Virus record (IMG/VR): IMGVR_UViG_3300008050_000026 | Span: 1 to 64,000 of that record | Direction: 5' to 3' (one strand) | Source: a virus | DNA length: 64,000 nt | In this document: positions 10,862 to 29,430 of the stretch, in pieces | Layout: every line of letters begins with the position of its first letter | Position numbering within the stretch: position 1 is the first letter of the stretch | Translations under genes and position numbers: made by a program | The notes under the pieces: model-generated | Seen by the model: only the letters and a program-made list of their open reading frames with translations | The model's database searches: none | What the model was told of the DNA's origin: nothing

Positions 10862-10888
10862 TCTCGAAGTTTAACTAACACACGAACT

Positions 10889-11263: not shown

Positions 11264-11273
11264 TTAGATAGAT

Positions 11274-11776: not shown

Positions 11777-11780
11777 GATC

Positions 11781-12221: not shown

Positions 12222-12240
12222 TAAGAAATTATTATATTTG
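12219..12240 (+). promoter_or_regulatory. Two-block phage promoter before the candidate ncRNA
   Basis: The block TAATAAG, three bases, then TTATTATATTTG matches the two-block motif seen before the replication genes. The final TATATTTG (12233-12240) is the -7 element. Transcription would start near 12245 and run into the stem-loop RNA at 12264-12355. Confidence 0.55.
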
Positions 12241-12244
12241 GTGT

Positions 12245-12360: not shown

Positions 12361-12361
12361 G

Positions 12362-12369
12362 TAAATTTG
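12362..12369 (+). promoter_or_regulatory. -7 element TAAATTTG just before the 68-aa gene
   Basis: TAAATTTG ends seven bases before the ATG at 12377, leaving almost no leader. It follows the candidate RNA directly. Confidence 0.45.
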
Positions 12370-12376
12370 TAAACTA

Positions 12377-12583
12377 ATGCCAACAGTTATACTTATCGAT
12401 AAAGATCTTAAAGATTGGGTTCATAATCATGAAGTCCCATTTGCACATAGGACAGGTGATGATCTACCTGAAAAGAAACTAACTGTTGATTTCAATAAGA
12501 CATATCGTGTATATGAGAACAAACGAGAAGTCCTCATGACTGCTTCTTCATCTGAAGCAATCGACAAATACAATTCAATCTAA
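12377..12583 (+). CDS. Small hypothetical protein (68 aa)
   Basis: The product reads MPTVILIDKDLKDWVHNHEV and ends SSEAIDKYNSI; it looks like a small folded alpha/beta domain. Its last base is shared with the next start. No family is recognised. Confidence 0.45.
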   Translation: MPTVILIDKDLKDWVHNHEVPFAHRTGDDLPEKKLTVDFNKTYRVYENKREVLMTASSSEAIDKYNSI

Positions 12584-12819
12584 TGGCTAAGCAAAGAAAA
12601 AGCAAGAAAAAACATCATTTTTTAGTAAAAGATTGCAAGGTTGGTGATACAATCATCATTACATCTACTGATATTGGTAAGGATCGAGTAAATTGGCCAA
12701 CAATTCGAGATGGTATAATTGCGAAAGCTAAAGATCTTGGATGTTTCAAAGATCTAACGTTGGAAAATATTGATGATGGTACTGAAAATAAAGTCAAAGT
12801 AATGTTCTATGAAGCTTGA
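12583..12819 (+). CDS. Small hypothetical basic protein (78 aa)
   Basis: A Lys-rich N-terminus (MAKQRKSKKKHHFLV) is followed by a compact alpha/beta pattern (VGDTIIITSTDIGKDRVNW, then DGIIAKAKDLG). It overlaps the next gene by 11 bases. No family is recognised. Confidence 0.45.
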   Translation: MAKQRKSKKKHHFLVKDCKVGDTIIITSTDIGKDRVNWPTIRDGIIAKAKDLGCFKDLTLENIDDGTENKVKVMFYEA

Positions 12820-13546
12820 TATTGTCATCCCATTGGGGATGGAAGGAATGGGATGGGATGATAATGAATTGAAATATGCATTGCGATCCATTGAAAAAAA
12901 CTTCAAAGATCTTGGTCAAGTATGGATCATAGGATATAAGCCAAATTGGTTGGTGAATGTAAAGTATATCCAAGCATTCGATCCATATAAGCACAACAAA
13001 GATGCTAACCTGATCAATAAGATAATCCTTGCGTGTCAGCAAGATGAATTATCTGAACAATTCCTATTCACATCTGATGATCATTTCATAATGAAACCTG
13101 TGGATGCTTCATGGTTTGATAGGCCATTGATGGACAATAGCCAGATGAAATTTGACAGAAATAAGAAATTGAACAGATGGCAACAAAGATTGGTTCAAAC
13201 TGAGGCAGCATGTTTGGCAAGGTCTCGCCCATCGAATTGTTACGAGGCACATGTACCATATAAATTCAACAAGCGATTATATCCTCATTTTATGCTTCAA
13301 TTCGACTATGGCGAGGGCCTTGGGTATACATTGGCTTCTCCATATTTCAATTCAGTTCAATTAGAATATCAGGAACCTGAAGAAAATACTGTTGCCAGAG
13401 TCAATCATAAGGTCCAGTCACGAGAAGAATTGGATGGACTTGTGAAGGATAAGATGTTCTTCAACTATTCAACAGTTGCATTTGACGATACAATTAAGAC
13501 ATTCCTTGCGGAAAGATTTACAGAAAAGAGTAAATTTGAAGCATGA
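12809..13546 (+). CDS. Stealth/glycosyltransferase-like protein (245 aa)
   Basis: The N-terminus (MKLDIVIPLGMEGMGWDDNE, then LKYALRSIEKNFKDLGQVWI) and the segment EQFLFTSDDHFIMKPVD resemble the conserved regions of Stealth-type hexose-phosphate transferases and related glycosyltransferases, where the acidic pair binds metal and nucleotide sugar. It is the third carbohydrate-active enzyme in 5 kb. The start overlaps the previous gene by 11 bases. The substrate cannot be read from the sequence. Confidence 0.6.
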   Translation: MKLDIVIPLGMEGMGWDDNELKYALRSIEKNFKDLGQVWIIGYKPNWLVNVKYIQAFDPYKHNKDANLINKIILACQQDELSEQFLFTSDDHFIMKPVDASWFDRPLMDNSQMKFDRNKKLNRWQQRLVQTEAACLARSRPSNCYEAHVPYKFNKRLYPHFMLQFDYGEGLGYTLASPYFNSVQLEYQEPEENTVARVNHKVQSREELDGLVKDKMFFNYSTVAFDDTIKTFLAERFTEKSKFEA

Positions 13547-13577: not shown

Positions 13578-14978
13578 ATGTCTAAGAAAATCATAGCTAC
13601 CGATCACCTCCACGTAGCGAAGAACCTTGTTGAAATGTACAAGGGCAAAGAGGATTACAACTCAGAAAAAATTTCAGGTGTATTGGATTACAACCTTGAA
13701 AAAGGTATCATTGATGATGATCAATTCTGTAATGCTAAGGACCAATTGGATACCATTGAAAAAGGTAGGGGAAAGACAAAGAAGATCGGGGAGTTGGATA
13801 AATCAGGCAGGAATATTAAGACTGCCAATGGTTGGGTTCCAGTTAAACATGCTGCAAAAACACATGCAGGCGCAGCTGAAGCAATTGCCAAGAAACAAGC
13901 TGCGGGACTTGATATTTCAAACTATGGACTTGATGAATACCATAAGATCATTGACTCAGCTGTAAAATCAAGGAAAGGTTTCTATACTGGATCTGGATAT
14001 GATACAGATGTTGATTTATATGAAGAAAGGAAAGCATGGGGTGAAAGTTCAAGAAAAACTTACGCGATCTTAAATCTGTTTCATCCAAGAAATAATTTCA
14101 AATATGCATTAGGTCAACAGGATACGTTGGCTACTAAGGTTCTAATGGAAACAACCAATGGGAAAACTTGGAAGAAAGTTGAAGAGCAAGTAATTGGTCA
14201 TGGATATGGTGGTCAAGTTCTTAAAGGTAAGATGGGGCGAATTGATAGTGCATACAATGGGAATGACTATAACAAGTTACGTCTTTCTCCTACGTGGATA
14301 AAACATAGGGAAAATAAAGCTGCTGAAACTAAAGAAAAAGCTGAATTCAAAAATGATCTACTTTCAAAGATACCATTTGATAGTAAGGATGAAGCCAGAA
14401 TTAAAAATATCATTGCAAGGTCAAAAGGTTCAGATAATTCAGCAATGAGTTTTGCACAAAGTATGGCTAATTCTATTAAGGATCCTAATAAAGCTATTCA
14501 ACGAGCATCTGCAGCTCATTCATTAGGACATGGTAGAATAGCTGACATATTTCTTGAAGAGGCATTCAATCTTGGATATGTTTATGAAGAACCTTACTCG
14601 CCAAAGAAAAGGAAACGAGATGGTGAACCTAAGAACTATGGTAGACCTTCACCTATCCTACCTATAGGAAAAATCAATTTGAATACTGGATCTTCTAAAT
14701 ATTTCAATGTTTATGAAACGTGGGGTGAAGACTCAACCTATGAAATATACAAAGATCTTAATTCTGGATGGAGTGATGGATCTAAGAAAAATTACAAGAT
14801 CGTCGTAACATCAGGTAAATCACCTATAAATGATGTTGGTGATAAGGCAGGTTTCATACACGATCAAAATCATAGAGGATTATTTGATGGTGAAATGATA
14901 GACCATGCGACAGGTTCAGAATTAAAAAGGTTAGCAGCAACGTATGGTAATTCAATTTCAGGATACGTATACAAGTAA
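13578..14978 (+). CDS. Tagged modular protein 1, putative capsid cargo (466 aa)
   Basis: Residues about 35-62 form the helical segment shared by the cassette (LEKGIIDDDQFCNAKDQLDT then IEKG). It leads into tag A (residues about 63-90, GELDKSGRNIKTANGWVPVK). The remaining 375 residues contain a region with YTGSGYDTDVDLYEERKAWG and, near the C-terminus, PIGKINLNTG, which resembles a short segment of the next protein. No catalytic family is recognised in the body. It starts the 14 kb cassette between the head genes; packaging in the capsid is inferred from position and the shared tag. Confidence 0.6.
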   Translation: MSKKIIATDHLHVAKNLVEMYKGKEDYNSEKISGVLDYNLEKGIIDDDQFCNAKDQLDTIEKGRGKTKKIGELDKSGRNIKTANGWVPVKHAAKTHAGAAEAIAKKQAAGLDISNYGLDEYHKIIDSAVKSRKGFYTGSGYDTDVDLYEERKAWGESSRKTYAILNLFHPRNNFKYALGQQDTLATKVLMETTNGKTWKKVEEQVIGHGYGGQVLKGKMGRIDSAYNGNDYNKLRLSPTWIKHRENKAAETKEKAEFKNDLLSKIPFDSKDEARIKNIIARSKGSDNSAMSFAQSMANSIKDPNKAIQRASAAHSLGHGRIADIFLEEAFNLGYVYEEPYSPKKRKRDGEPKNYGRPSPILPIGKINLNTGSSKYFNVYETWGEDSTYEIYKDLNSGWSDGSKKNYKIVVTSGKSPINDVGDKAGFIHDQNHRGLFDGEMIDHATGSELKRLAATYGNSISGYVYK

Positions 14979-15937
14979 TGAACAACGAGGAAAAGCGCAT
15001 ATCGAATAATATTCTCAAATCCTATGGATTAGACATTGAGAAGGGTAGGGGAACCACCAAGAAAATTGGCGAACTTGATAAGTCAGGCAAGAATATCAAA
15101 ACTGCGAATGGCTGGGTACCTGTTAAAAAACATCAAGCAGGAGGTAGTTCTGAACCAAAAGAGGGAACAATAGCAAGTATCAAAAAAGTTGCAAGAAGTT
15201 TAGGTATACCAAACGATCCAAGTGGATTAAGCGATTTTGTATCTTGGACAAAACGAGGAGGATATGCTGGTGAAAAGAAGGTAGGCACTGTTTCAAGAAA
15301 AGCTATTGAACTTGGTTGGAAAGAGGAAAGCGATTACCATGATACACATCCAGCAAATGGAAATACATCAAAAGGTACAATATTTATCTCACCTGATGGT
15401 AAATTCAAATTAGATGCCAGTGTGTACTTTGGTGAAACTGCAAGCAAAAATGCTTATGGGTTAATGCTAAAAAGGGTTAAGGAGCCTGAAACAAAAGGTG
15501 ATGGTTCAGGACTTCTTGATAAAGTAAAAGAAAATCTGAGAAAAGAAAAACCTCTTACTGCGGCTGTAATTGCTGTGGGTGTTATTAACATGAATACTGG
15601 AATGACTGGTCATGGTTGGAGTATTTATGAAAACAAAGGAATGCATGCTTTCTTGACAGATCAAGGTTCATTGCTATTAGGAAATCCAAAAACATTTGAA
15701 GTTGGTAACAAGGACATAACTCTTAGAGACAATGACTCAAATAGGCGAAAAGAATATGGAGTTGAGATAATTGATAAAGCACCTTGTAATAAAGATGAGC
15801 TTTTAAGTATGCTTGAAAAACACAGGTATCATTATAAACCATTGAAAGCGTTTAGAAAAAGACCTGAGGGAAGTAGAAAATTACGTACATCATATTCTGT
15901 AAAAGGAACTGATCACACTGAAAATTGGAGAAAATGA
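14978..15937 (+). CDS. Tagged modular protein 2 (319 aa)
   Basis: The N-terminus is short: one helix (NNEEKRISNNILKSYGLDIE) joined directly to tag A (residues about 23-50, GELDKSGKNIKTANGWVPVK). The body contains a helical first part and a C-terminal part with AVGVINMNTGMTGHGWSIYE, weakly similar to the end of protein 1. The first base of the ATG is the last base of the previous stop, and the end overlaps the next gene by four bases (ATGA). No enzymatic motif is recognised. Confidence 0.6.
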   Translation: MNNEEKRISNNILKSYGLDIEKGRGTTKKIGELDKSGKNIKTANGWVPVKKHQAGGSSEPKEGTIASIKKVARSLGIPNDPSGLSDFVSWTKRGGYAGEKKVGTVSRKAIELGWKEESDYHDTHPANGNTSKGTIFISPDGKFKLDASVYFGETASKNAYGLMLKRVKEPETKGDGSGLLDKVKENLRKEKPLTAAVIAVGVINMNTGMTGHGWSIYENKGMHAFLTDQGSLLLGNPKTFEVGNKDITLRDNDSNRRKEYGVEIIDKAPCNKDELLSMLEKHRYHYKPLKAFRKRPEGSRKLRTSYSVKGTDHTENWRK

Positions 15938-16674
15938 AACCAGTAGCTAAAGACGAACAGAACATTAAGAACCGTATTGCTGAAATGTATGGCAATAAGG
16001 ATGTTCCTACATGTGAAGCAATTGCGAAATCGCTTGGTAAAAAACTCAAATCGGGTGTTATTGATCAAACCTTACATGACAAGGCGATTAACCAACTTAA
16101 TGGTACTGTTGAGAAAGGTGATGATGGGGAACTTGAAAAAGCTCACAAATATGTTAGCAGGTCTGGATCTAAAGGTCATTATAAGTATGTATATCGAGAG
16201 CATGGAGAAAAACCAGCTACAAAACATTTTGATGTAGGTGATCACGTTATGACACCATTTTCAGGAACTATAGTTGTTAGTAAAGTTGAAGGAAATGTTA
16301 TTTGGGATCATAATGGAAGAAGGATCAGTGGTTTCCAATTAAAAGATGCTGAAATAATCGGTTCACCAGAAGCACGTAGGAGAAAGGCACAAACAATTCA
16401 AGATGCCCATAATGCCAAGATAAAAGCTGAAAAGCGAGAAAGGCAGGCAAATAAGATGACTGAAGCTAAATACAATGCAGCCATTAAAGAATGGGCATCG
16501 TCATTGGCTCATGATCTTGGTGACGAAGCAATGGAAAATGTAGGTGAAACAGTTGAGAATTTCATACTTGCTCATCCAAACGTTGTAGACTATATTGAAA
16601 ATAGAAACACGTATGGATACGATAACGACCCACCTGAACTTAGAATCCAATGGGACTTAGAAGGACAACTATAA
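15934..16674 (+). CDS. Tagged modular protein 3, tag B type (246 aa)
   Basis: The ATG at 15934 overlaps the preceding stop. Residues about 33-60 are the shared helical segment (KKLKSGVIDQTLHDKAINQL), followed by tag B (residues about 69-86, HKYVSRSGSKGHYKYVYRE). Then comes a small beta barrel-like part (FDVGDHVMTPFSGTIVVSKV then EGNVIWDHNGRRI), suggestive of an SH3-type fold, and a charged helical C-terminus. Function is unknown. One base overlaps the next start. Confidence 0.6.
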   Translation: MKPVAKDEQNIKNRIAEMYGNKDVPTCEAIAKSLGKKLKSGVIDQTLHDKAINQLNGTVEKGDDGELEKAHKYVSRSGSKGHYKYVYREHGEKPATKHFDVGDHVMTPFSGTIVVSKVEGNVIWDHNGRRISGFQLKDAEIIGSPEARRRKAQTIQDAHNAKIKAEKRERQANKMTEAKYNAAIKEWASSLAHDLGDEAMENVGETVENFILAHPNVVDYIENRNTYGYDNDPPELRIQWDLEGQL

Positions 16675-17978
16675 TGAACCAAGAGGAGCAACGCATATCA
16701 AATAATATTTCAAAGGCTTACGGTATTGATATCGAGAAGGCCAGAGGTAAGGTGAAGAAGATTGGTGAACTTGATAAATCTGGAAAGAATATCAAGACAG
16801 CCAATGGATGGGTGCCTGTGAAAAAACATGGTTCTACTTCAATCAAAAAGAAAGCTTCACCAAAACCTAAAAAGGCTAATGCATCTATTCAAGATGATGT
16901 TGCTGGTCCTGATAAAAAAGGAGGATCAAAATTACTTGGTTTTGAAACGTACGATGTTAAAACAAGAATGGATCGTGCAGTTCTGTTTAGCAACTATGAA
17001 GAAAAATACATGGCTGACCATTTTGAAACAAAATGGAAAAGTGATCTAAGCGACCACCAGAAGAATGAAATAAGGGAAGCATTCTTTGCAGATCATGGTA
17101 GAGGAAAAGATAGTGCTGATCCAGAAAAAATAAGCGAACTTCTTGGGGGTAAGTTATCAGAGAAAAATGAAGCTTTATTTGCAATTGAGTCATTTTACAT
17201 ACGCGATCACGAAAAAGGCAACTATACAGATGATATGCTTAATTCTGTAACTGAAAAGACCAAAAAGGTTGTTTCACTTATTGAAAAGAATAAAGATACG
17301 TTCCAAAACTTTATAGCATCATTATATCCAGATACTGAGTCAGCAAATCGTGTTGTTTTGAGATCAAAGGATTTTGACATAATTACAGACGATCTTAATA
17401 CTGCTGCTTTCAAAATGGAATACAGGCCTAAAAAATGGGATAGCAATAGACCAAACATTGGCTTCAAATGTGTTCTTTCAAATGGTAAGATCAATACCAA
17501 TTTGAAAGCAATGCAAACAAACACAGAAAATAGTTTGGCTCGTTTTCCAGACTCTGGAACAAAAGAGCGCCTTGAATTAGAAAAGAAACTGGTTGATAGA
17601 ACAGGAGGTGACTCATCATCTAATGCAAAACATGATGATGAGCTTATTGATCTTCAAAAAATTTATGATAATTATCATACGCTTTCAAGACATTCACATA
17701 AGCAATCAACATCAAATCTTAGTAGAAAGGATGAAAACACATTGCATTTCCACGTAGGTGATATTGGTAAGAAAAAACAAGTTCATGATACTATTAGGGA
17801 TGCATTTTCACTTAGCGTTCCATCTTCAATAGGTGATTACAAGTTACAGGGAATTACTAATGGTGAAAAAATAGTTTCAAAACGTGATCACATGAAGCGA
17901 GCTCTTGAGGTTAGGGAAAATGATTACAGCGAATATGAGAATGATTATAGTATAACGTATGTTTATACTAAGAAATAA
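16674..17978 (+). CDS. Tagged modular protein 4 (434 aa)
   Basis: The ATG at 16674 shares one base with the previous stop. The N-terminus closely repeats that of protein 2: NQEEQRISNNISKAYGIDIE then tag A (residues about 23-50). A Lys-rich linker follows. The body carries RPNIGFKCVLSNGKINTN and a His-rich part (YHTLSRHSHKQSTS, then ENTLHFHVGDIG), without a recognised family. The near-identical heads of proteins 2 and 4 with unrelated bodies show modular exchange. Confidence 0.6.
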   Translation: MNQEEQRISNNISKAYGIDIEKARGKVKKIGELDKSGKNIKTANGWVPVKKHGSTSIKKKASPKPKKANASIQDDVAGPDKKGGSKLLGFETYDVKTRMDRAVLFSNYEEKYMADHFETKWKSDLSDHQKNEIREAFFADHGRGKDSADPEKISELLGGKLSEKNEALFAIESFYIRDHEKGNYTDDMLNSVTEKTKKVVSLIEKNKDTFQNFIASLYPDTESANRVVLRSKDFDIITDDLNTAAFKMEYRPKKWDSNRPNIGFKCVLSNGKINTNLKAMQTNTENSLARFPDSGTKERLELEKKLVDRTGGDSSSNAKHDDELIDLQKIYDNYHTLSRHSHKQSTSNLSRKDENTLHFHVGDIGKKKQVHDTIRDAFSLSVPSSIGDYKLQGITNGEKIVSKRDHMKRALEVRENDYSEYENDYSITYVYTKK

Positions 17979-17989
17979 GTAAATCAATA

Positions 17990-18856
17990 ATGGGAGAAAA
18001 ATACAATCCAGCTGACCTGCTAAAACAAAATAGGCAGGATAGAGTTAATCCATACGAAAGTGATGGAGGACTTCAAAAAGTAGGTGAGACCTATGGCAAG
18101 ATGATTTCCTTGATGAATGAGAATTTCAACAAGGGAAAAATTGATGAAGCGTTATGCAACAGGGGCTTCGAACAACTGGATGGGTTGATTGAAAAGGCAG
18201 GTCATAGGTATATTCGTAGAGAAGGTACTCCTGGGAATTACAAGTATGTGTATGCTGAAGATGCTAAAAAAGGCGATCACGTAAAAACCACCCAACATAA
18301 TGATAAAAATCTAAGCAGAACAAAAGATACTGTTAAAGATCTTCGTATGACTGGTAAAATGTCAAAAGAGGACTATAAAAAGTATCTTGATGGTGGAGGT
18401 AAAGAAACTGATTATGTTGATCATGGTAAAAAAGAAAAATCTATTTCTGAAGAATACGATACTGAGTTAAAAAGACTTAAGGGTCTCAAGGCAAAGGTTG
18501 ATGATCGAGCTGATAAGACGCATAACTATGCTGAAGGGAAACAGCTGTTAAAAGAAAGTGATAAACTTAAAAATCAGATCGAAAAACTTGAAAAGGAGAA
18601 CAAGCAACAATCTTCAGAACCTGAAGAAAACGATTTTGAACCAGATGGAAAAATTCGAAGTAGACTAAAGATGAATTTGAGTCTTGATACAGAAGATCTT
18701 AATACATTCATTGACTCAATAAAAAATCAAGATCTTGAAGACAAAGTGTTTGGATTATTCACAGGATGGTCTAATAGTAGGGAACAAGGTGAGATGTATG
18801 AAAGAATAGAACGCGAACTTGATATGGCGGGTTATGATGCAGCACATTTGGATTAA
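17990..18856 (+). CDS. Tagged modular protein 5, tag B type (288 aa)
   Basis: Residues about 38-64 carry the shared helical segment (NENFNKGKIDEALCNRGFEQ, LDGLIEK), followed by tag B (about 67-82, HRYIRREGTPGNYKYVYAE). After a charged linker the body is mostly coiled coil (residues about 145-205) and ends with a short acidic domain. No enzyme family is recognised. A 50-base gap with a promoter separates it from protein 6. Confidence 0.6.
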   Translation: MGEKYNPADLLKQNRQDRVNPYESDGGLQKVGETYGKMISLMNENFNKGKIDEALCNRGFEQLDGLIEKAGHRYIRREGTPGNYKYVYAEDAKKGDHVKTTQHNDKNLSRTKDTVKDLRMTGKMSKEDYKKYLDGGGKETDYVDHGKKEKSISEEYDTELKRLKGLKAKVDDRADKTHNYAEGKQLLKESDKLKNQIEKLEKENKQQSSEPEENDFEPDGKIRSRLKMNLSLDTEDLNTFIDSIKNQDLEDKVFGLFTGWSNSREQGEMYERIERELDMAGYDAAHLD

Positions 18857-18879
18857 AGGTTAGTTGTTAATAAAAATCG

Positions 18880-18887
18880 TAAATTTG
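18880..18887 (+). promoter_or_regulatory. -7 element TAAATTTG before the AAA+ gene
   Basis: TAAATTTG lies 19 bases before the ATG at 18907, in the only real gap inside the tagged-protein cassette. Confidence 0.45.
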
Positions 18888-18906
18888 TTGAAATTCAGTA
18901 GATAAA

Positions 18907-21714
18907 ATGGACGCATTGGAAGAACTTACAGGAGGCAACCTTACAGAACAAGCTAAGGATAGGATCTCAAAATCATATACATCCAGAGTAGGCGAACGAA
19001 AGATTGCCACAACTGCCTTAGCTGTAAAGACCCTCAACGATAATTTCAATAAGGGACTAATAACTGAAGACCATCTTGAAAAGGCATTCAAACAACTTGA
19101 TGGTATCATCGAGAAATCATTTCATAAGTATCTAAGTCGAGCTGGAACCCCAGGGCATTATAAGTATGTCTACCTTGAAGACCAAAAGAAAGCTGGTCAA
19201 AAAAAAAGAACAGAGGTTGATGTAGAAGGTTCAGGAACAGATGCTTCATTAGATGCACAAGCCGATAAGATTGTTCAAAGTTCAATTGATAGATATAACG
19301 ATCGCCACAACCAATTACTGTTCCATCCAAGTAGATTGCTTGAACGTTCTGTGAAACATGGTTTCATTACTGAGGAGCAATCTAATAATGAAGATTTCAT
19401 TGCTGCTGCCGAAGAGGTTGCTGAACGTTGGACCGAGGATCAGGATCCAGATGGTGATTTTGGTTCATCTGATTTTACAGCAGCTCTGGCAGATTTTATG
19501 GATGAAGCAGGCATCGCTTATCATCGAGGTGAAAGACATGAACTTAAACCAGGGCCAAAGGTAGTAAGCGATGCTGAAGTAAATGAATTAAAAGACCCAT
19601 CTGACCCAGGCTTTACTATCACAGGTGAATATGAAGGTAAACCAGTAGAATTCTCAGGTGAGCAACTTCAAAATGCTATGGATGGTGCTTTCCATAGTGC
19701 AAATACCCCAATGGATTTTGCTATTAAAGTTTTATATGCAGTAACTGATCAGACAAGCGAAATATCAAACGAAGATATGTCAAAGTTAGAATCGTGGTAT
19801 TCAGCAGAAAAAGATAGGTTACGTGGAAGAGGAGATAAGGAAGACGAAGCTGATACTTCATATAAGGGAGCAAATACTGCATTGGCAAAAATTACAGATC
19901 TTGTGAAAGATTGGTCTGGTGATACAATTACAGAAGCTGAAGTTTTATCAGTAATTGAAGCAGCCGATGATTACGGTGTTGAAGAAAATATGTTCAGAAT
20001 AGAACATCCTCGAAATCAAGATGAAGAAAGCAGAAGAGTAAATTTTGCTACTGATTACATTACAAGAAATATTCCTGAAGGGATGTGGTTACATACTATG
20101 GAGCGATCAGATGTTCGTGATATTGTATGGGGAATGGTGATGGCAAAAAGAGGTAATAACAGTATCAAGATATTTGATGCATTAAAAAAATCTGATGTTG
20201 ACATTGATATTTTGAAAAAAGGTAATTCAACACCATTCGTATTTACTGAAGAACAAGATGCATTCCTATTCAATGTGTTTGACATCATGAAAGGTGCTCC
20301 ATCAGGAAAGATTGCTAAGAAGGTCACTGTCAAAAAGAAAGATGGTGGGACTTACATGGCAACACGTTATTTCAGCCAAGAGGAGATTGATGAAATGGAA
20401 ACAAAAGGTACCACCCAAGAGGAAATGGATACCGATACATCCAATAAGATCTATGAAATATTAGAAGGGAGCAAAGCTAAATCAGCTCAACTTCGTCAAT
20501 TGATTGAAATAGGTATTCATAATCCATTCCATTTGATGGCAATGAATACTGATTACAACGAGTCAAATGTATCTCATTATCTTAAGGAGGCAGGAATTGA
20601 TCCAAAGTCATTTGGTTTTGGTAAGAAAAGAAAAGCTGCAACTGTGAATGACGATGGTTCAATTGAATATGAGGAGGACGATGACGAACCAAATCAAAAT
20701 GAATTGGAGCAGGAGATAGAAGCAATGCTTCGAGCTGATGGTTTGCTTTTTGATACTGATCTTATGGAAGCAAATGCTGAAACAGGAAAAGATGCTGTAG
20801 ATACTGTTCAGGATAAATTTGTCAACAAGGTAGCAAAAGGTGAAGCTAAACTGGCTATGATATATGGCACAGGAGGTGTTGGTAAAACATGGGGAGTAAA
20901 ACAAACTATGACTAACCCATCTGTTAAGGATGAATGGGGAGAAGAATTTGGCAATGAGTTAGTAGAATATGACTCAGAACTTCAACCAAATTCTGAAGAA
21001 TACGATTTCATAAAGTTCACAGGTCAAATATCACCTTCAAAACTTTATCGCGCATTGTATGAACACAATGGCAAAATTCTTATGCTTGATGACTGTGATG
21101 CTGTTCTACAAGATAGAACAATGGTGGATATGCTTAAAGGTGCTACAGATACAACATTGGAAGATATTGTTTGGGATGGTATGCCTATCAAACCTACAGG
21201 AGCTGATAAGGATACACCACCACTCCCTACGCGCTTCAAATTCAAAGGGGGCATTATATTCATATCGAATATGACTGAAGAAAAATTAAGACAAACTGCA
21301 TCACCTCTATTAGACTCGAGGGCACTTTCGCTTAATGTATCAAGAACAAAGGAACAGACAATTGACAAACTTGATCGTATCAAACAACACATGGAGTTTG
21401 AAGATACAAAAGGCAATGTCATAGAAGTTTCGCCAGAGTCAAGGGACGCTGCGGTTGAATTTGTGAAAAAATGGTCTAAGTATGCTGATATTGCTAAGAT
21501 CAACGCAAGAACGTTTGGTTCATTGGCAAAGGATTATGAAAGTTCAAAGTATAACGGTGTAGAAGGTTTCTTAAAATCACATTCAGCTCGATCAATAATG
21601 AATGTCCTTGATCATCAGGTTAAGAAGTACATTTATACTGAAAAGAAAAAGGAAATGAAAGCGGCAAAGGATAAAGCTGCTTTGATGAAGTCAATACATA
21701 ATCATATAGGATAA
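18907..21714 (+). CDS. Tagged AAA+ ATPase (935 aa)
   Basis: The N-terminus has the shared helical segment (NDNFNKGLITEDHLEKAFKQ, LDGIIEK) and tag B (residues about 73-90, HKYLSRAGTPGHYKYVYLE). A long charged middle (about 90-640) follows. A C-terminal AAA+ ATPase domain begins near residue 640. Walker A is GTGGVGKT (654-661), Walker B is ILMLDDCD (Asp728, Asp729), and a sensor-1-like Asn sits in GGIIFISN. Arg-rich SPLLDSRALSL follows. The enzyme should hydrolyse ATP to remodel a protein or nucleic acid; the target is unknown. ATPases are unusual as head-cassette proteins, which makes this worth testing. Confidence 0.7.
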   Translation: MDALEELTGGNLTEQAKDRISKSYTSRVGERKIATTALAVKTLNDNFNKGLITEDHLEKAFKQLDGIIEKSFHKYLSRAGTPGHYKYVYLEDQKKAGQKKRTEVDVEGSGTDASLDAQADKIVQSSIDRYNDRHNQLLFHPSRLLERSVKHGFITEEQSNNEDFIAAAEEVAERWTEDQDPDGDFGSSDFTAALADFMDEAGIAYHRGERHELKPGPKVVSDAEVNELKDPSDPGFTITGEYEGKPVEFSGEQLQNAMDGAFHSANTPMDFAIKVLYAVTDQTSEISNEDMSKLESWYSAEKDRLRGRGDKEDEADTSYKGANTALAKITDLVKDWSGDTITEAEVLSVIEAADDYGVEENMFRIEHPRNQDEESRRVNFATDYITRNIPEGMWLHTMERSDVRDIVWGMVMAKRGNNSIKIFDALKKSDVDIDILKKGNSTPFVFTEEQDAFLFNVFDIMKGAPSGKIAKKVTVKKKDGGTYMATRYFSQEEIDEMETKGTTQEEMDTDTSNKIYEILEGSKAKSAQLRQLIEIGIHNPFHLMAMNTDYNESNVSHYLKEAGIDPKSFGFGKKRKAATVNDDGSIEYEEDDDEPNQNELEQEIEAMLRADGLLFDTDLMEANAETGKDAVDTVQDKFVNKVAKGEAKLAMIYGTGGVGKTWGVKQTMTNPSVKDEWGEEFGNELVEYDSELQPNSEEYDFIKFTGQISPSKLYRALYEHNGKILMLDDCDAVLQDRTMVDMLKGATDTTLEDIVWDGMPIKPTGADKDTPPLPTRFKFKGGIIFISNMTEEKLRQTASPLLDSRALSLNVSRTKEQTIDKLDRIKQHMEFEDTKGNVIEVSPESRDAAVEFVKKWSKYADIAKINARTFGSLAKDYESSKYNGVEGFLKSHSARSIMNVLDHQVKKYIYTEKKKEMKAAKDKAALMKSIHNHIG

Positions 21715-21947
21715 TGGCTAAAGAAGAAAAAACACCAGAAAAAGAAGTTGCTGAAAAAGGTAGTAATACCGAAAGTTCAGGATTGGATTTATCAAATGAA
21801 ACTGATGAGTCACTTAATACAACTTTAAGGGTTATGATGAGAATATATCCACATCAAACAACCCCTGTAATGCAGGCGTATTATGATGAGCTTCAAAAGC
21901 GTGGTGTAAAAGCACCTGAAAAGGAAACAGAAAAAGATGCTGCATAA
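21714..21947 (+). CDS. Small acidic/charged hypothetical protein (77 aa)
   Basis: A charged, probably disordered N-terminus (residues 1-30) and C-terminus enclose a short helical core (LNTTLRVMMRIYPHQTTPVM followed by QAYYDELQKRG). It shares one base with the AAA+ gene stop. No family is recognised; it may be an adaptor or a cargo peptide of the cassette. Confidence 0.45.
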   Translation: MAKEEKTPEKEVAEKGSNTESSGLDLSNETDESLNTTLRVMMRIYPHQTTPVMQAYYDELQKRGVKAPEKETEKDAA

Positions 21948-21949
21948 CC

Positions 21950-24472
21950 ATGGCAAAAGTAATGCCTGTAGGTACTGTACGTCACTGGAAAAAAGGTGAT
22001 GTAATAAAAGCACATGATGGTACAGCCATGCATTCAGGCTGGATAGGCCTCGAATCTCCAGAACATTTAAGACAAGTTTTCAAGGAAGCAGATACGTTAG
22101 CAAATATTCTGTATAAGAAAAAAGAGCCAATCAGTGGTGAAGTTTACCTTGATCATGAATTGAGGGAAGTAAAAAGACCACCAGATAAGAATTCAGGTCC
22201 TTATTCACCAGACAAATTCAAGATCTACGAAGGTTTCTATGGTGCAGGCAAATATTCGTTCTTCAATGAGTTTTCAAGGTTATTCATGGCCAAGAAAATT
22301 GAAGCACAGGAGTATTATATAGATATGCTTCGAAGATACAATAGGGAGGAGAAGCAAGGGAACGATAGACTTGATAGAACTTCATCTGATGAAAAGAAAA
22401 TGATAAGAAGGCGATCTAAAGAGTCGTTTGTCTTTTCAGGTGAAGAACTTAATGAAGGAGATGCACATGATATTGTAGCCTTAGTCAAAAAGGTATACAA
22501 GCACATGGAAAAAGGTATGAAGCTTGAACCTGATGAAAAAAAGGTTTATGATAAAGCAGCTGCCTTAGTTGATGGATTACCAATTAACTATGTAAGGTTG
22601 AAAGAAGCCATGCGTAGAAAGGAACTTGCTGTTAAGTTAATAGGTAAGAAATTTCCAGATAACTGGGCCATTCGAGAGTCATTCAGAATAAAGGCGACTG
22701 AGAAACTAAATGAATATCTTAAGAAATATAAGGATAGGATAGCTGAAGACGAAGCCAAGGATCAAGAAGCTACATTTGGTGTATCGTTGGATGCTCCAGT
22801 CGATGAGTTCTATGAAGCTGTATATGATAAGATTGATGGCGAACTTCATAAAGTCAAGAATTTTGATTTTGAGACATTAAAAGGTAAGAAGCACGATATT
22901 GTAATGAAAGGTGCTTACAATGGTGAACCTACACATGATTGCGTAGTTATTGACTGGAAAAAAATGATTGAAAAAAATTCAGATCTTCAAGCTGAATTTC
23001 CAGAGGCAACATATTGGATAGGTAAACCAAAACCAAAAGATAAAGAAAGTGATCCTCAGTTATATTATATGTCTCCAATCGAACCAGAGGATGAGCTTTA
23101 TTACAAAGCGCAGTTTCATCAAATGAAATACCCATTTGCTGAATTGGTCAAATTAAGATTTGCGACTAAGTACCAAAAGGAACTTGATGGTAATTGGACG
23201 TTTGATCTACTTCCAGCAATGGAAAACATTGAAAGGGCTCTTACAGGCTTACCAGAAGGACATGTATTGAACAATAAATACATTGAAACGTTCTCCCAAC
23301 AATCATTTAATGGGGGATCACATGGAGGTTATGCTTGGTTCAGTGACCATGATAGTAAGATAAATTTCTCAGATGAATGTGCAAAGCATGCAAGTATCTG
23401 GGCAAGGAGTTCAATTGCACCTGAGTTCAAAGCTACATTATATCATGAAATAGGTCATGGAGTAAGTAAAAGGTTTGGGCGTGATGGGAACCTTGATTAC
23501 AAGAAATTCACAGTTGCCGCAGGTTGGTCATATCATCAAGCTGAATTAAGAGCTGGTTTTACAAGAACAGGTGATGATAAGAATTTACCAAGACATGGTT
23601 CAAATTCTGGTACTAAGTTATTGACAGCTTATGCGCATAAATCACAGGAAGAAGCTTTTGCTGAATATTATTCAATCTATAACCTTCATAAGGATGCAAT
23701 TGATAAATGGTTAGAAACAGGTGAGTCGAAACATCTTAAAGAAACCTATGCTGTTGAGGTACCTATGAAGATTGAGAAGAAACAGTTGAAGGAATATTTC
23801 AATGATGGTTCAAATTGGGCTTTATCGTCTCAAATTAAAAATCGCTTGATTGATTTTAAGGGTAGAAACAAGATAAATATTCAAGAACATCTCGGTTTAG
23901 ATCTTATTTCACCACATAGGTGTTCAACAGTAAAGACTGAGAAAAATAAATACAGTCCTCCAAAGGTCCTTGGAAGAAAACATAGGCAAGCACATTATGT
24001 CCCACCAGTTGTAGCAGTAAAAGACAAGAATAAGTATAAATTACTCGATGGTGTTAATAGGCAAAAGGAGTTTATGTTGAAACATAAGATGATGCCAGCT
24101 CAGTTAATATCTCAGGAGCTTTATTCACAAATGAAGAAAAACGATTTTACTGACGAGGAAATTACAGGTATCGTATCATTTCATTTGAAAGATAGTATGG
24201 TACCTATTCAGGTTTCGCAACCTGTTAAAAGAGAGGGATTGATGTACAGGAACAATGTTCTTGATTATAAGGATCTTGAAAAGAACATCCAGCCCATAAG
24301 GGCTATGAAGAAAATATTTCACAGTTCAGCTTTAGTGAAGGCATTAGGAGAAACATTTGGAATAGTAAAACAAGGCCATGAACAAGGTATTGTGACCGAT
24401 GTTGATTATTTTAATGCCATCGTTAAGTATAATGAACATCGAGAAAAATTGTTAAATGGAAGAACCAGTTAA
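21950..24472 (+). CDS. Zinc metallopeptidase with ParB-like domain, modular cassette (840 aa)
   Basis: The N-terminus (MPVGTVRHWKKGDVIKAHDG) looks like a third type of tag. Around residues 499-503 is HEIGH, a zinc-metallopeptidase HEXXH motif. It is preceded by a helix and followed about 65 residues later by EEAFAE (567-572), which can supply the third ligand, so the peptidase looks intact. Residues about 660-720 (VPPVVAVKDKNKYKLLDGVN, then RQKEF) resemble the ParB/sulfiredoxin-like fold. The C-terminal 60 residues again resemble the shared helical segment (HEQGIVTDVDYFNAIVKY). Such multi-effector layouts are known from phage polyvalent proteins. The substrate is unknown. Confidence 0.7.
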   Translation: MAKVMPVGTVRHWKKGDVIKAHDGTAMHSGWIGLESPEHLRQVFKEADTLANILYKKKEPISGEVYLDHELREVKRPPDKNSGPYSPDKFKIYEGFYGAGKYSFFNEFSRLFMAKKIEAQEYYIDMLRRYNREEKQGNDRLDRTSSDEKKMIRRRSKESFVFSGEELNEGDAHDIVALVKKVYKHMEKGMKLEPDEKKVYDKAAALVDGLPINYVRLKEAMRRKELAVKLIGKKFPDNWAIRESFRIKATEKLNEYLKKYKDRIAEDEAKDQEATFGVSLDAPVDEFYEAVYDKIDGELHKVKNFDFETLKGKKHDIVMKGAYNGEPTHDCVVIDWKKMIEKNSDLQAEFPEATYWIGKPKPKDKESDPQLYYMSPIEPEDELYYKAQFHQMKYPFAELVKLRFATKYQKELDGNWTFDLLPAMENIERALTGLPEGHVLNNKYIETFSQQSFNGGSHGGYAWFSDHDSKINFSDECAKHASIWARSSIAPEFKATLYHEIGHGVSKRFGRDGNLDYKKFTVAAGWSYHQAELRAGFTRTGDDKNLPRHGSNSGTKLLTAYAHKSQEEAFAEYYSIYNLHKDAIDKWLETGESKHLKETYAVEVPMKIEKKQLKEYFNDGSNWALSSQIKNRLIDFKGRNKINIQEHLGLDLISPHRCSTVKTEKNKYSPPKVLGRKHRQAHYVPPVVAVKDKNKYKLLDGVNRQKEFMLKHKMMPAQLISQELYSQMKKNDFTDEEITGIVSFHLKDSMVPIQVSQPVKREGLMYRNNVLDYKDLEKNIQPIRAMKKIFHSSALVKALGETFGIVKQGHEQGIVTDVDYFNAIVKYNEHREKLLNGRTS

Positions 24473-24593
24473 AAAGTGGAAGATCACATACGGTAACCTT
24501 GAAACAGAAGATTACGAGGGTACATTCAATGAAGCGTATGATCATGCTATGGTTAAGAGTAAAGAATTCGAAATTCTACCAGCTGATGAATGA
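24456..24593 (+). CDS. Very small acidic protein overlapping both neighbours (45 aa)
   Basis: An ATG inside the end of the metallopeptidase gene opens 45 codons (MEEPVKKWKITYGNLETEDY, ending ILPADE) and closes eight bases after the next gene starts. It fills an otherwise empty 113-base gap, and the overlaps on both sides suggest coupling. The sequence has a plausible beta-beta-alpha pattern. No function is recognised. Confidence 0.5.
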   Translation: MEEPVKKWKITYGNLETEDYEGTFNEAYDHAMVKSKEFEILPADE

Positions 24594-27500
24594 TATAATC
24601 GAAAAATCACCTGCTGGTGTCTACGTAAACAATCCAAAGAATAAAAAGTTGGGTAGGGTAGGTGCCAGATATGGTACGTCAAAGACTGCAGGTGAATATT
24701 ATGGCAAGACTGTTAAGCATTTCAAGGAATATTCAAATGCAATAAATAACATCGCTTCAGAACTCGGAGGTGTTGCAATAGTAGCCCCACCTAAAAAACT
24801 TGAAAGAGTTCAGTATAAAGCCAAACATGAATACGGTGGTGATTTCAAAAAGGTCAAAGACATTTTAAGATCAACAATCGTAATAGGTAGAAGTAAAGCG
24901 TTGGAGCTTTGTGATACGATAAGGAAAAAATACCCATGCGTAAAAGCTTATGTAAATTTTAGTTCAGAAGGGTACCAAGGTGCCAATTTTGTATTTTCAT
25001 TTAAGGGATTTCCAGTTGAACTTCAAGTCAATACTCCAGTCAATATGGTTTTGAAACAAGGCCATGATGATAATCCTGCGTTGAAAAATGCTTATGATAT
25101 GATCAACAGTGCTGGTATACCTACTGGACTTGGTCATAAGTATTACGAAAAGTTAAGACAGGCTGGATTATCTGAAGAAACAAATACTATTGGTACTAAT
25201 TTGATGAACAAGTACTATAACTATAGGGAACTGTTCATGTTGCGTGATGAACTTACAAAGGCTTCAAAACATGGCCATGGTAAAAAAAGAAAACCCATTG
25301 TTGTTTACAATAAGAAGACTGGCAAGACATATACAAGGAACCAGATTGTAGGTGACAAACTTGAAGAACATGAGACTAAGCATCCCATAAACGAGTTCTT
25401 AAGAGGTTTAACAAAATTGTCAGCTGGCAAACAAGCCGAATTCTTCAAATGGGAAAGGGACAATGCAAAATACGTTGAAGTAAATCCAATAAGCGATCTA
25501 CCTCAAGATGTTCAAGATAATATTTGGGCAACAGGTCCTAAGATCAAAGAATGTTTTGGTAATTCTGCAAGGATCGCGATGGGAGGTATAAAGGGAGCTA
25601 AATATGTTGAAGGCTTCGTTTCTTTTGCAGGAGTGATACCTTTGGAACATGCTTGGGTCAAAATTGGAGACAAATATTACGATCCAACAGCTGAAGGTCC
25701 TTTGAAAGGAGGATCAGACATGGGACATTATACAGCATTGATTGAACTCAATGAAGATGAGGTTCTTGATTATATGGTAAAAGAAAGGAAACATGGACCT
25801 TGGGTAGGTTCATATTACTATAATAATAACGTTATGAAGAAAGGACTACTATCTACTTTGTTGAACCCATTTACTAAATTATTCGATAAACCAGAGTATC
25901 CTGAAAACATCTGTAAATCCTCAGATGAGACGACATTCAAGAACTATGCTGACTGTATATTAGTAAATGAAAAAGGTCAGCTTCTTCTACTCCTACGTGC
26001 TGATGGTGATTTTTATCCGAGACACTGGTGTTTGCCTGGGGGTAAAATAGAACAAGGGGAAACACAGGATGAAGGTGCTCTACGTGAATTGCTCGAGGAA
26101 ACAAACATCAAACCAGTAGGTTACAACTTCTTACGAGAATATGATAATGGTGATGGTACAACTTCAAGCTATTATGAAGTCCATTGCAGTGAAAATGATT
26201 TGATGATACTTGATAACAGTGAGCATTACAACTGGTGTTGGGTAGATCAAGTTGAATTAGAAAAGTTACCTTTGATACTAAGTTTACAGGAAAGGCTTGT
26301 AGATTTATTGCCATTGACAACATTCGGTATGTTTCAAGCAAACCCTTTTACAATGACTTCAATAATCGAACAAGAGACCAATAATATTTCACCACAGTTA
26401 CAGGCCAAGCATCAAAAAGAAGATGCTGCATATTACATTATTAAAACTGCCTATGATAATGGCCAACTTGGGGAGGCAGCATTCTTGAAAGCTTCATCGC
26501 AATATACTGAAATCAAAAAAGGACGCCCTGCACAAATTGGTGAGATACGAGAATGGGGAGGAGTTAAGAAACAAAAAACTGCAAATGGATGGGTCCCAGT
26601 TAAATCAGGTAAGAAAGGAGCTAAAGTTGAGGATGAGGGAAAGGATGAGAAAACTGCAAAACCAGAGGATGAAAAAACTCAACATTCTGAAGAGGAACTT
26701 GCTGGACATGCTCAAAACGCTTCTGAAGCTGACCTAAAGAAAACAGTTAGTAATTCCAAGGATGAGAAATTAAGGGTTGCTGCACAAAAGGAGCTTCAAC
26801 GTCGAACCGAACAATCTGATGAGATTACTGGTAAGAACAAAGATGAGGATGCTGATGGTTGGGCTAAGAAAGATGGTGAGGATAAGAAAGGTGCTGGCGG
26901 AGAAGCAAAAACTCCCGAACATGATTATTCTGAAGATGAAGATGGATTTCATGAACAAGTTTCAAGAGCAAGAAAAGCTTATGACAATCCAATGGATGAT
27001 AAGATGAAGGATCATGCAAAGTCTTTCCTTGATGGGGCAAAAGACCATAAGAAGAAAATGGGCTTTGGTTCAGAACCTGAAGACAAATCTGTTGAAAAGG
27101 AGAAATCTGATAATGCAAAAATGAAACAAGTCATGGATTTCCTTGATGGAGAACATGGTGGTGCTTCATTAGAACCAGTAAAAGGCAAGCCAGGGTTGTG
27201 GCGAGACTCAGAAAACGATATTCTTGATAAGAAAGACATAATTGCTCTTCACGAACAGTTTGATAAAGAAGGCTTGTTTGAAGAAGAGGGAATAAGCCCT
27301 GATAGTGGAAAAGATGACGATGGTTATCAAGAATGGTTAGAGAGCAGGAATTGGCGAAAACCACAAGCAGAGATTGATGCAGAGGAAAAAGCAAAGAAAG
27401 AAGAAACAACTGAAAAAGCTGGAGATCAATTATTAGAAGACTTGGGAATTGGTTATTCAACAGATACTTACAGCATATTTTTATCAGATGGGGTAAGTTC

Positions 27501-27771
27501 TAAGACTACACCAACAACTCTTGATAAAATGAAAAAGAATGGTGAAGATTTTGTTGAAGATAAAGAATTCAATCTAAGTCAATTGGAAGGGTTTATTGGT
27601 GGAGAAGACAAAATGAAAGAAGCTGTTAAGAAACGAGCAGCAAAAGAAAAAGTTTCCAATGACGAAATGATGTGGGCAGATAATTACACCGAAACCCAAG
27701 AAAAATTAAAAACCGCAAAAGATGGTCTTAGTAAAATAGAAGCTAAGATGGGTGAAACTAAAAAGAAATAG
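24586..27771 (+). CDS. Polyvalent protein: RelA/SpoT-like, C-H-D peptidase-like and Nudix domains with tag A (1061 aa)
   Basis: I chose the ATG at 24586; an upstream in-frame TTG at 24499 is inside the 45-aa gene. Residues about 60-200 resemble the RelA/SpoT nucleotidyltransferase fold (GDFKKVKDILRSTIVIGRSK, then GYQGANFVF, VELQVNTP). Residues about 300-410 look like a papain/transglutaminase-type domain with Cys323 (KECFGNS), His355 (LEHAWVKIG) and Asp366 (YYDPT). A Nudix hydrolase follows (box about 485-508, GGKIEQGETQDEGALRELLE then ET). The shared helical segment and tag A come next (about 620-675), and then a long charged tail. The domains suggest nucleotide and protein modification; packaging is inferred. 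Confidence 0.7.
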   Translation: MNDIIEKSPAGVYVNNPKNKKLGRVGARYGTSKTAGEYYGKTVKHFKEYSNAINNIASELGGVAIVAPPKKLERVQYKAKHEYGGDFKKVKDILRSTIVIGRSKALELCDTIRKKYPCVKAYVNFSSEGYQGANFVFSFKGFPVELQVNTPVNMVLKQGHDDNPALKNAYDMINSAGIPTGLGHKYYEKLRQAGLSEETNTIGTNLMNKYYNYRELFMLRDELTKASKHGHGKKRKPIVVYNKKTGKTYTRNQIVGDKLEEHETKHPINEFLRGLTKLSAGKQAEFFKWERDNAKYVEVNPISDLPQDVQDNIWATGPKIKECFGNSARIAMGGIKGAKYVEGFVSFAGVIPLEHAWVKIGDKYYDPTAEGPLKGGSDMGHYTALIELNEDEVLDYMVKERKHGPWVGSYYYNNNVMKKGLLSTLLNPFTKLFDKPEYPENICKSSDETTFKNYADCILVNEKGQLLLLLRADGDFYPRHWCLPGGKIEQGETQDEGALRELLEETNIKPVGYNFLREYDNGDGTTSSYYEVHCSENDLMILDNSEHYNWCWVDQVELEKLPLILSLQERLVDLLPLTTFGMFQANPFTMTSIIEQETNNISPQLQAKHQKEDAAYYIIKTAYDNGQLGEAAFLKASSQYTEIKKGRPAQIGEIREWGGVKKQKTANGWVPVKSGKKGAKVEDEGKDEKTAKPEDEKTQHSEEELAGHAQNASEADLKKTVSNSKDEKLRVAAQKELQRRTEQSDEITGKNKDEDADGWAKKDGEDKKGAGGEAKTPEHDYSEDEDGFHEQVSRARKAYDNPMDDKMKDHAKSFLDGAKDHKKKMGFGSEPEDKSVEKEKSDNAKMKQVMDFLDGEHGGASLEPVKGKPGLWRDSENDILDKKDIIALHEQFDKEGLFEEEGISPDSGKDDDGYQEWLESRNWRKPQAEIDAEEKAKKEETTEKAGDQLLEDLGIGYSTDTYSIFLSDGVSSKTTPTTLDKMKKNGEDFVEDKEFNLSQLEGFIGGEDKMKEAVKKRAAKEKVSNDEMMWADNYTETQEKLKTAKDGLSKIEAKMGETKKK

Positions 27772-27786: not shown

Positions 27787-29430
27787 ATGAAAGCTGCAAA
27801 AGATAACTTCAAATTCTTTATACCTGCCGATTTTGTAAAAGGCATTGATGATGATGGTCATGAGACTATGATGATCAAGGGAGTAGCTTCTACCAATAGA
27901 AAGGACTCACAAGGTGAAATACTCGATGTGAATGGTTTCGATCTTACTGATTTCTCGGTTATCAATTGGAACCATAAGGGAAAGGATGACGCAGGAGCTA
28001 TAATTGGCGAACCTACCAAAGCTGAGGTAAAAGGGAACAAGTTATTGATTGAAGGCATGCTTTATCCAGAAATGCCAATGGCGAAAGCTGTATTCAATTT
28101 AATGAAGGCATATAAGAACTCCCCTACAGGAAAACAACTTGGACTATCAATTGAAGGAAAGGCATTGTCAAGAGATAATGTAAACCCAAAGAAAATCAAT
28201 AGGGCCAAAGTAACAGGGGTTGCAGTATGTCCACATCCTATAAATGGGGATACAACTGTTGAACTATTGGAAAAAAGCTTTACACATGGAGATTTCGAGT
28301 TTGATGAAGATGAACTTGAAAGTGTAGAAAAAGCAAATGACTTCTGGTCCTTAATAGATAGTGATAGCAAATTCAAAGAATATGTTACTTCTAATAATAA
28401 GGAAGACAGAGCTGGTGGTGAAATTGGCGATATTACTGAGATAGAAAGGAATAGATTACTTAAAGCTTATACGGCAGCAGGTAACGTTCACGTATCTAAG
28501 GAGTCAGTAGAACACGATCCAAAAGGCATTGTAGATGGTAAAAAGAAAAATTTATCAAAATCTGATGTCTACGAAAAGATTTTTGATTATTTTGGTCCCG
28601 TCGAAACAAAAACGGCTCAAGGAATATACTCGTTAGTAGATAAAATTTCAACTATGGAAAAGCAACCTATCTCAGAAGACACTCTCAAAAAAGCAGAAGA
28701 AATCCTTAACCTTTCAACTGAGGAACTTATTAAGAAAGCAGCAGAAGATGGAGGCGATAAGATAAGTGATGATGATGAAGGTGACAAGAAAGATGGCGAA
28801 TATGAGGGAGAGGATGGAGTAGAAAAAGCAGAAGCATTTGCAAAATCAGAATTTGCAAAAGGAACCAAAGAAGCTGACATCGTCAGTACCTTAACTAAGG
28901 GAGGCCTTGGAATTGAAAAGGCACAAGCATGTGTCAAATCATGTGTTGCTGAAGCCAATCGAAAACGAGAAGGTGGAGACGTTACGACTTTGAAAAAATC
29001 ATTTGATGAGCAAACTGACATCATAAAAGGTTTCGGTGTTTCAATGGATCAAAAATTCTCAGCTGTCCTTGATATTATGAAAGGACAATCTGAAAAGATT
29101 AGCTCACTCGAAGAAATAAATAAAGGATTGGCTTCAGAAATTGAAGCATTTGGCAATTCAGGTGCCAAAAGGAAATCCGTTCCATCATTGAAGATGATCG
29201 AAAAATTCGAAAAATCTGTTGATGGTTCAGAAACGTATCAACTATCCAATAAGACTTCACGAGGATTACTTGTATCTCGCATCAATGAGGCTTCAGGCTT
29301 GAATGGTGGAGATCCAGATAAAGTGAATATGGCACTTGCAAGGGTAGCACAAGACATTGAATTGACCCAATCGGTTACTGCACCAGGGCTTCAGTTATTG
29401 AAGTCGCATCAAATCGAGGTTATCAAATAA
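27787..29430 (+). CDS. Prohead protease fused to a scaffold-like domain (547 aa)
   Basis: Residues 1 to about 160 are an HK97-type (S78) prohead serine protease. His63 sits in NWNHKGKDDAGAIIGEP, Ser121 in LGLSIEGKA, and KVTGVAVCPHPINGDT closes the core. These enzymes cleave scaffold and other internal proteins during head maturation. The following 380 residues are acidic and helical, with coiled-coil segments and KAQACVKSC, as expected of a scaffold. Protease and scaffold on one chain, directly before the capsid gene, is a known arrangement. It is also the likely processing enzyme for the tagged proteins encoded upstream. Confidence 0.8.
   Translation: MKAAKDNFKFFIPADFVKGIDDDGHETMMIKGVASTNRKDSQGEILDVNGFDLTDFSVINWNHKGKDDAGAIIGEPTKAEVKGNKLLIEGMLYPEMPMAKAVFNLMKAYKNSPTGKQLGLSIEGKALSRDNVNPKKINRAKVTGVAVCPHPINGDTTVELLEKSFTHGDFEFDEDELESVEKANDFWSLIDSDSKFKEYVTSNNKEDRAGGEIGDITEIERNRLLKAYTAAGNVHVSKESVEHDPKGIVDGKKKNLSKSDVYEKIFDYFGPVETKTAQGIYSLVDKISTMEKQPISEDTLKKAEEILNLSTEELIKKAAEDGGDKISDDDEGDKKDGEYEGEDGVEKAEAFAKSEFAKGTKEADIVSTLTKGGLGIEKAQACVKSCVAEANRKREGGDVTTLKKSFDEQTDIIKGFGVSMDQKFSAVLDIMKGQSEKISSLEEINKGLASEIEAFGNSGAKRKSVPSLKMIEKFEKSVDGSETYQLSNKTSRGLLVSRINEASGLNGGDPDKVNMALARVAQDIELTQSVTAPGLQLLKSHQIEVIK

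Follow-up and report, generated by a model that had tools for sequence, protein, structure and literature searches.

Our analysis of a virus record from IMG/VR (IMGVR_UViG_3300008050_000026, 97,074 bases, of which bases 1-64,000 form the window described here) revealed a cassette of eight plus-strand genes (13578-27771), seven of which encode proteins carrying one of two short peptide tags, A or B, joined to unalike bodies. Comparison with related phages suggests that the tagged proteins are probably head cargo, which would be loaded into the phage head, trimmed by the prohead protease before the tag and probably delivered with the DNA. The layout of such cargo would be a propeptide, a cut site of hydrophobic-x-Lys/Ala, Ser or Gly (the slash marks the predicted cut), a beta-hairpin tag and an effector body.

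Two tags on unalike bodies

Tag A is present in the window in four copies and tag B in three (Table 1). All seven lie close to the positions given in an initial annotation of this DNA, and they were recovered by hidden Markov models (HMMs) built from other phages only, with independent E-values of 2e-10, 1.5e-7, and 8e-5 for tag B and 2e-7, 0.0045, 0.0049, and 0.039 for tag A. Ten shuffles of each open reading frame yielded nothing better than 2.4 with these HMMs, and scanning all six frames of the complete record brought up no tag beyond the seven. The tags are small, basic, and aromatic. As the annotation had claimed, the bodies differ completely, with no pairwise BLASTP match having E below 0.2. 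Its statement that a helical stretch comes first in most tagged proteins holds for five of the seven (13578, 15934, 17990, 18907, and 24586); the N-termini of 14978 and 16674 lack this segment and have a common motif, EExRISNNIxKxYGxDIEK, instead. An additional copy of the helical segment ends the 21950 protein, which is without a clear tag. Assignment of the segment to SHOCT or another Pfam domain was rejected (SHOCT gave no hit up to an E of 10).

For three copies of tag A, the proportion of synonymous differences (pS) is 0.71-0.93, i.e., near saturation, and that of non-synonymous differences (pN) is 0-0.02, the roughly 14 synonymous sites having 10-13 changes and the peptide one at most. 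It follows that the copies are of old date and that selection maintains the tag, presumably for a partner common to all of them. If the tag were a leftover of recombination or duplication that only marks the joins of modules, this could explain the occurrence of one unit on different bodies and the two nearly identical tag copies in one protein of record G004, but such an origin, already disfavoured by the saturation of silent sites in the window copies with the amino-acid sequence held, is hardly credible.

Two AlphaFold2 models, both of moderate confidence, were obtained. The module of the 18907 protein (40 sequences, predicted local distance difference test score, pLDDT, 73) has helices at 14-26 and 32-49 and strands at 53-57 and 64-67; it is thus modelled as a helical hairpin followed by a beta-hairpin, with the Lys-Ser motif where the two would meet. 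For tag A (15 sequences, pLDDT 67), the model contains one helix plus a short hairpin (40-43/46-49). HHalign profile comparison did not support homology between the two tags, though both model as beta-hairpins. That they are interchangeable is suggested by a family of P-loop ATPase-like domains (phrog_1250), which bears tag A in a relative from Chryseobacterium phage MA9V-3 and tag B in the window protein 18907.

The lysine motif preceding the tags

A hydrophobic-x-Lys motif followed by Ala, Ser, or Gly precedes all seven window tags. In capsid relatives, K[AS] closes a short N-terminal segment (ELLK/AMQAG in the window capsid protein), and in structures of a homologous staphylococcal phage capsid (PDB 9row, 9rox, and 9roz) the deposited chain starts at S25 of the precursor 5lii (VVK/SFQTG). 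The motif was first found by inspecting these proteins and afterwards counted on a larger set. In 14 relatives, the scaffold regions together have 152 [LIVMF]xK[AS] sites compared with 22.5 +/- 4.6 in shuffles, an about 7-fold excess; no enrichment is seen in these regions for R[AS], E[AS], or D[AS] (64 E[AS] sites vs. 94 expected). The SPO1 scaffold protein gp3.3 has 11 [LIVMF]xK[AS] sites vs. 1.1 in shuffles, and the C-terminal scaffold region of the window protease (27787) is rich in hydrophobic-x-K-[AS] sites.

A strict site lies at most 20 aa upstream of the tag in 48 of 82 non-redundant tags, as against 8% of control windows from the same proteins; K[AS] is present at 10 other tags, and 7 more lie near a start codon. 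Alignments show the Lys in 90% or more of the members of each tag set, A as well as B, and the N-termini of the window cargo contain 11 sites vs. 1.8 expected. In 22 tagged relatives, hydrophobic-x-K[AS] stands before the tag and no more than 60 residues into the open frame, and in tagged relatives the site is often only 7-25 aa after a plausible start codon. From this conservation and the one structure series with a mature start after Lys, we infer that hydrophobic-x-K/[ASG] is the cleavage motif of this prohead-protease branch, the homologues arguing for a cut after Lys. A T4-type cut after Glu (LxE or IxE) is not indicated here, Lys being conserved at the site. Given such a motif before the tag, the helical segment can be read as a propeptide, so that the upstream segment is probably removed and the tag probably starts the trimmed cargo.

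In the proteases of SPO1 and of records G002 and G003, the N-arm of the capsid protein recurs with the same K[AS] site, e.g., DKAMSAGHKTGRDLDG; this copy is perhaps used for self-cleavage or as a capsid-docking mimic.

Distribution, bearers, and proposed role

Tag B is carried by about 80 distinct proteins of uncultured phages. A DNA pattern of the tag B core matched 94 stretches in IMG/VR, and a slightly stricter version had one match in 84,980 bacterial and archaeal genomes. As the tag B loci were found by the exact core pattern, degenerate tags are under-counted, and some of the tagged records are near-duplicates. In 50,697 phage records, the tag B consensus had no match and the tag A consensus matched MA9V-3 only, in four places. 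No match to the exact tag A pattern TANGWVPVK was found across IMG/VR beyond the phage of the window, and none to the 131-aa N-terminal module of 18907 among phage isolates.

The phrog_1028 protease was found in 27 of 50 tagged IMG/VR records, in 18 of the 20 that are at least 39 kb long (two of these matches being weak), and in all five further tagged records from the first scan. It was absent from 15 control records (chance matches to an early pattern), only four of which are long, and was not seen in two tag A records outside this survey (G085 of 43.7 kb and short ones), which as fragments carry little weight. In records with both features, tags lie on the protease strand in 41 of 41 cases and upstream of the protease in 37 of 41, at a median distance of 3.5 kb, this set having been chosen for having both tag and protease. 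When one tag per contig of at least 40 kb was counted, 20 of 24 lay within 20 kb upstream of the protease vs. 6.6 expected. One result that the initial annotation had named as contradicting it was a location of the tags chiefly on proteins that are not structural and are encoded apart from the head genes; the outcome was in its favour. A mini-domain working in the host cell, e.g., by binding nucleic acids or ribosomes, and unrelated to head loading, could also be small, basic, aromatic, and reused on different bodies; however, the tie to one type of prohead protease and the place upstream of it, the capsid-maturation motif before the tag, and the tagged portal-MuF proteins make such a role very unlikely.

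Among 78 tagged proteins, Pfam domains were found for MuF (8), portal (6), Nudix (4), zeta toxin (2), as well as ParB, LPD1, RelA_SpoT, S78 protease, and others, most proteins having no match. The bigger ones contain ART-PolyVal, ddrB-ParB, LPD1, helicase, and PAPS reductase domains, and GNAT is also among the tagged polyvalent-effector domains. In several records a portal domain, a tag, and a MuF domain follow one another in one protein. Such portal-tag-MuF fusions were noted in L082, L135, L075, L093, and L110, that of L093 with a LAGLIDADG homing-endonuclease-like insert. Two tagged relatives have a match to ATLF in Pfam, a family of the metallopeptidase type that is known from toxins as well.

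These bearers allow another reading, in which the tagged proteins serve as structural components or in assembly: the hairpin would dock them at the inside of the capsid or at the portal, and after trimming by the protease they would remain in the head without being injected. Tags on portal-MuF fusions and beside the protease gene suit it, as do the window bodies, most of which match no effector family. On the other hand, many relatives bear effector-type enzymes (ART, zeta toxin, RelA/SpoT, GNAT, and Nudix), and the bodies vary wildly across phages, unlike conserved structural proteins; we therefore regard a purely structural function as rather unlikely.

A 1894-aa protein of G003 has the order Nudix, tag, ART, tag, unassigned region, tag, and GNAT, with EKA or TKA before each tag, and so looks like a cargo polyprotein. 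Taking at least two effector domains per polypeptide among head genes as the mark of a polyvalent protein, the 24586 protein and this protein (NUDIX, ART-PolyVal, GNAT) belong to that class, and most single-body window proteins do not. The site-tag unit comes after a Nudix domain in the window, MA9V-3, L031, L035, L041, and G003.

Protease co-occurrence, the upstream place on the same strand, the portal-MuF and polyvalent bodies, and the capsid-type motif support head association. The initial annotation, which took the tags for targeting or maturation signals on capsid-packaged, co-injected effectors, is thus partly supported, this association and such a role being well supported by comparison; it overlooked the cleavage motif. 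Under the cargo reading, the helical propeptide and/or the tag would bring the protein into the head during procapsid assembly. The activated 27787 protease would then cut the capsid protein at ELLK/A, shred its own scaffold at the repeated sites, and cut the cargo directly before the tag, leaving a trimmed chain that starts with, or close to, the tag. Multi-tag proteins would be split from one polypeptide into several effectors, and in Nudix proteins the tag end would be a removable C-terminal piece, so that the tag need not head the active enzyme. Packaging and injection are putative parts of this scheme; the cargo would probably be delivered with the DNA and act early in infection. As the helix occurs in only a part of the set and the site-tag unit is general, we favour the tag, or the site plus the tag, as the recognised element and the helix as an added one.

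Several observations weigh against this scheme. First, for 17 of the 82 tags there is no K[AS] site and no start codon close by, several of the 17 having K-G. Second, the evidence for a Lys specificity is conservation together with a single deposited mature start. Trypsin likewise cleaves at Lys; hence ordinary mass spectrometry data cannot discriminate, trypsin-based proteomics would hide the inferred cut, and the phage K peptide SFQTGYG..., itself tryptic, was set aside as proof of it. Third, effector bodies are not depleted of the motif (194 sites vs. 125 in shuffles), which means that internal cuts are more numerous or that context matters. Fourth, in Nudix proteins the tag follows the enzyme, and trimming would separate the two. 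Finally, a related Bacteroides thetaiotaomicron phage, SJC03, has the head module but no tags, so that such a module can exist without them; the selection of the 41-tag set has also to be kept in mind.

More broadly, the portable unit of site and label could be the address system shared across a large branch of phages with SPO1-type heads, nearly all of them uncultivated, in which any fused effector becomes cargo, long polyproteins are cut in the procapsid, and labels A and B are interchangeable; we hold the chances of this generalization to be about even.

Known systems, cassette genes, and neighbours

Knowledge of how proteins are selected for the phage head comes chiefly from T4, P1, and giant phages. 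The head cargo of T4 and phiKZ-type phages is described as bearing cleaved capsid-targeting sequences or propeptides (PMC9958956, PMC5694885). The T4 internal proteins, several small cargo proteins with a common N-terminal signal that is removed by the gp21 prohead protease (PMC9958956), were the analogy used in the initial annotation. It is functional, many tagged relatives having short putative propeptides of 7-25 aa, and not one of homology: the T4-type cut follows Glu and the inferred P1 residue here is Lys, the protease belongs to another branch, a conserved hairpin tag follows the cut, and the cargo is large, enzymatic, and multi-domain, including polyprotein strings. The ejection proteins of phiKZ and SPN3US comprise many head proteins whose propeptides are cut by the prohead protease at a common (A/S)xE motif (PMC5694885, PMC10052503); the motif, protease type, and phage group differ, and the accessible parts of these reports do not describe a portable common tag. 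DarB of P1, a huge multi-domain anti-restriction protein, has an N-terminal packaging signal within its first 30 residues; the likeness is by description, no tag being reported in the accessible part of that paper (PMC9024508). Polyvalent proteins share with the tagged ones the effector domains, MuF/portal fusions, head-gene context, and predicted virion packaging; a common cleavable tag is not described in the portions available (PMC5512222), and here the site-tag unit joins otherwise unrelated polyvalent proteins. In the available parts of the open-licence literature, neither the tag peptides nor a common cleavable label on polyvalent proteins was found described. SPO1 and other Herelleviridae (gp3.2 protease, gp3.3 scaffold, gp6.1 capsid) have a homologous protease and capsid protein, and their capsid, protease, and scaffold share the K[AS] site, but, unlike in the tagged phages, no tagged cargo was found in the examined regions of SPO1, SscM-1, and Goe26.

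If the proposed role is correct, a short recognisable address would allow head-loaded effectors to be read from genomes, many unannotated phage proteins would gain a place in the virion, and some polyvalent proteins would be explained as protease-cut cargo strings. MA9V-3, with the candidate cargo proteins XQU63093, XQU63098, XQU63100, and XQU63102, is one cultured phage in which the system is testable now.

Table 1. Coordinates of cassette, head-module, and protease N-arm features (window positions unless another record is named).
Feature	Coordinates	Strand	Length	Helical segment	Predicted site	Tag	Domains and remarks
Portal	1320					 	phrog_12
MuF-like gene	6427-7359						Weak match
Other genes between MuF-like gene and cassette	7406-13546
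Tagged protein 1	13578-14978	+	466 aa	13683-13763	IEK/G 13755-13766	A 13785-13847
Tagged protein 2	14978-15937	+	319 aa		IEK/G 15035-15046	A 15065-15127	No helical hairpin
Tagged protein 3	15934-16674	+	246 aa	16027-16116	LEK/A 16132-16143	B 16144-16194
Tagged protein 4	16674-17978	+	434 aa		IEK/A 16731-16742	A 16761-16823	No helical hairpin
Tagged protein 5	17990-18856	+	288 aa	18113-18196	IEK/A 18188-18199	B 18203-18253
Tagged protein 6	18907-21714	+	935 aa	19033-19116	IEK/S 19108-19119	B 19123-19173
Tagged protein 6, C-terminal domain	about 20806-21549						phrog_1250 P-loop ATPase-like
Neighbour	21950-24472	+	840 aa	24356-24448 (C-terminal)			HExxH zincin-like motif; no clear tag
Tagged protein 7	24586-27771	+	1061 aa	26431-26523	IKK/G 26512-26523	A 26536-26604	Acidic C-terminal region
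Tagged protein 7, Tas1/RelA-SpoT-like domain	about 24676-25164
Tagged protein 7, Nudix domain	about 25945-26265
Prohead protease	27787-29430	+					S78-type, SPO1 gp3.2 type; phrog_1028, E 1e-36
Major capsid protein	29467-30942	+					phrog_752, E 2e-68
Capsid reference site	about 29530-29556				ELLK/AMQAG
Prohead protease with N-arm copy, G002	21358-22284
Prohead protease with N-arm copy, G003	60178-61071
Prohead protease with N-arm copy, SPO1 gp3.2	L165 5986-6756

The first six genes of the cassette are separated by gaps of -4 to 50 bases, and a scan for promoters and terminators gave counts about equal to those in shuffles. The initial annotation had placed the cassette between MuF and the prohead protease; both flanking genes are present, with other genes intervening on the MuF side. 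The window has an SPO1-type head module, in which a phrog_1028 protease adjoins a phrog_752 capsid protein; the 27787 protease was matched in 606 of 50,697 isolates. By capsid, the closest isolate is MA9V-3 (61% identical), followed by B. thetaiotaomicron phages (38%) and then SPO1-like phages; as the nearest isolates are MA9V-3 and the B. thetaiotaomicron phages, the host likely belongs to Bacteroidota.

Body functions of most cassette proteins had no match in Pfam, PHROGs, or NCBIfam, the body of tagged protein 1 being without a recognised family, and the 18907 and 21950 proteins had none in the PDB. The 24586 protein begins with MNDIIEK/SP; its N-terminal domain is related to Tas1, a toxin of the RelA/SpoT synthetase type (E 4e-18), and the Nudix domain comes next, so that one polypeptide perhaps pairs an alarmone-type synthetase with a nucleotide hydrolase. 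Between these domains a papain-like-looking stretch was seen by eye. The 21950 protein contains the metallopeptidase motif LYHEIGHG and, by eye, a ParB-like DGxxR stretch; a tag A-like stretch at its N-terminus (10 bits) is too weak to be claimed as a tag.

In SJC03 (L168), two untagged proteins occupy equivalent gene positions: one (14431-16089) starts with SPLNRKLGRVG, similar to NPKNKKLGRVG of the window, and the other (17320-18003) is Nudix-like. Genes resembling glycosyltransferase/FkbM and nucleotide-sugar epimerase/dehydratase genes were recognised by eye at 8762-10805 in the window, as well as in L005 (513-1472) and L006 (147-1142).

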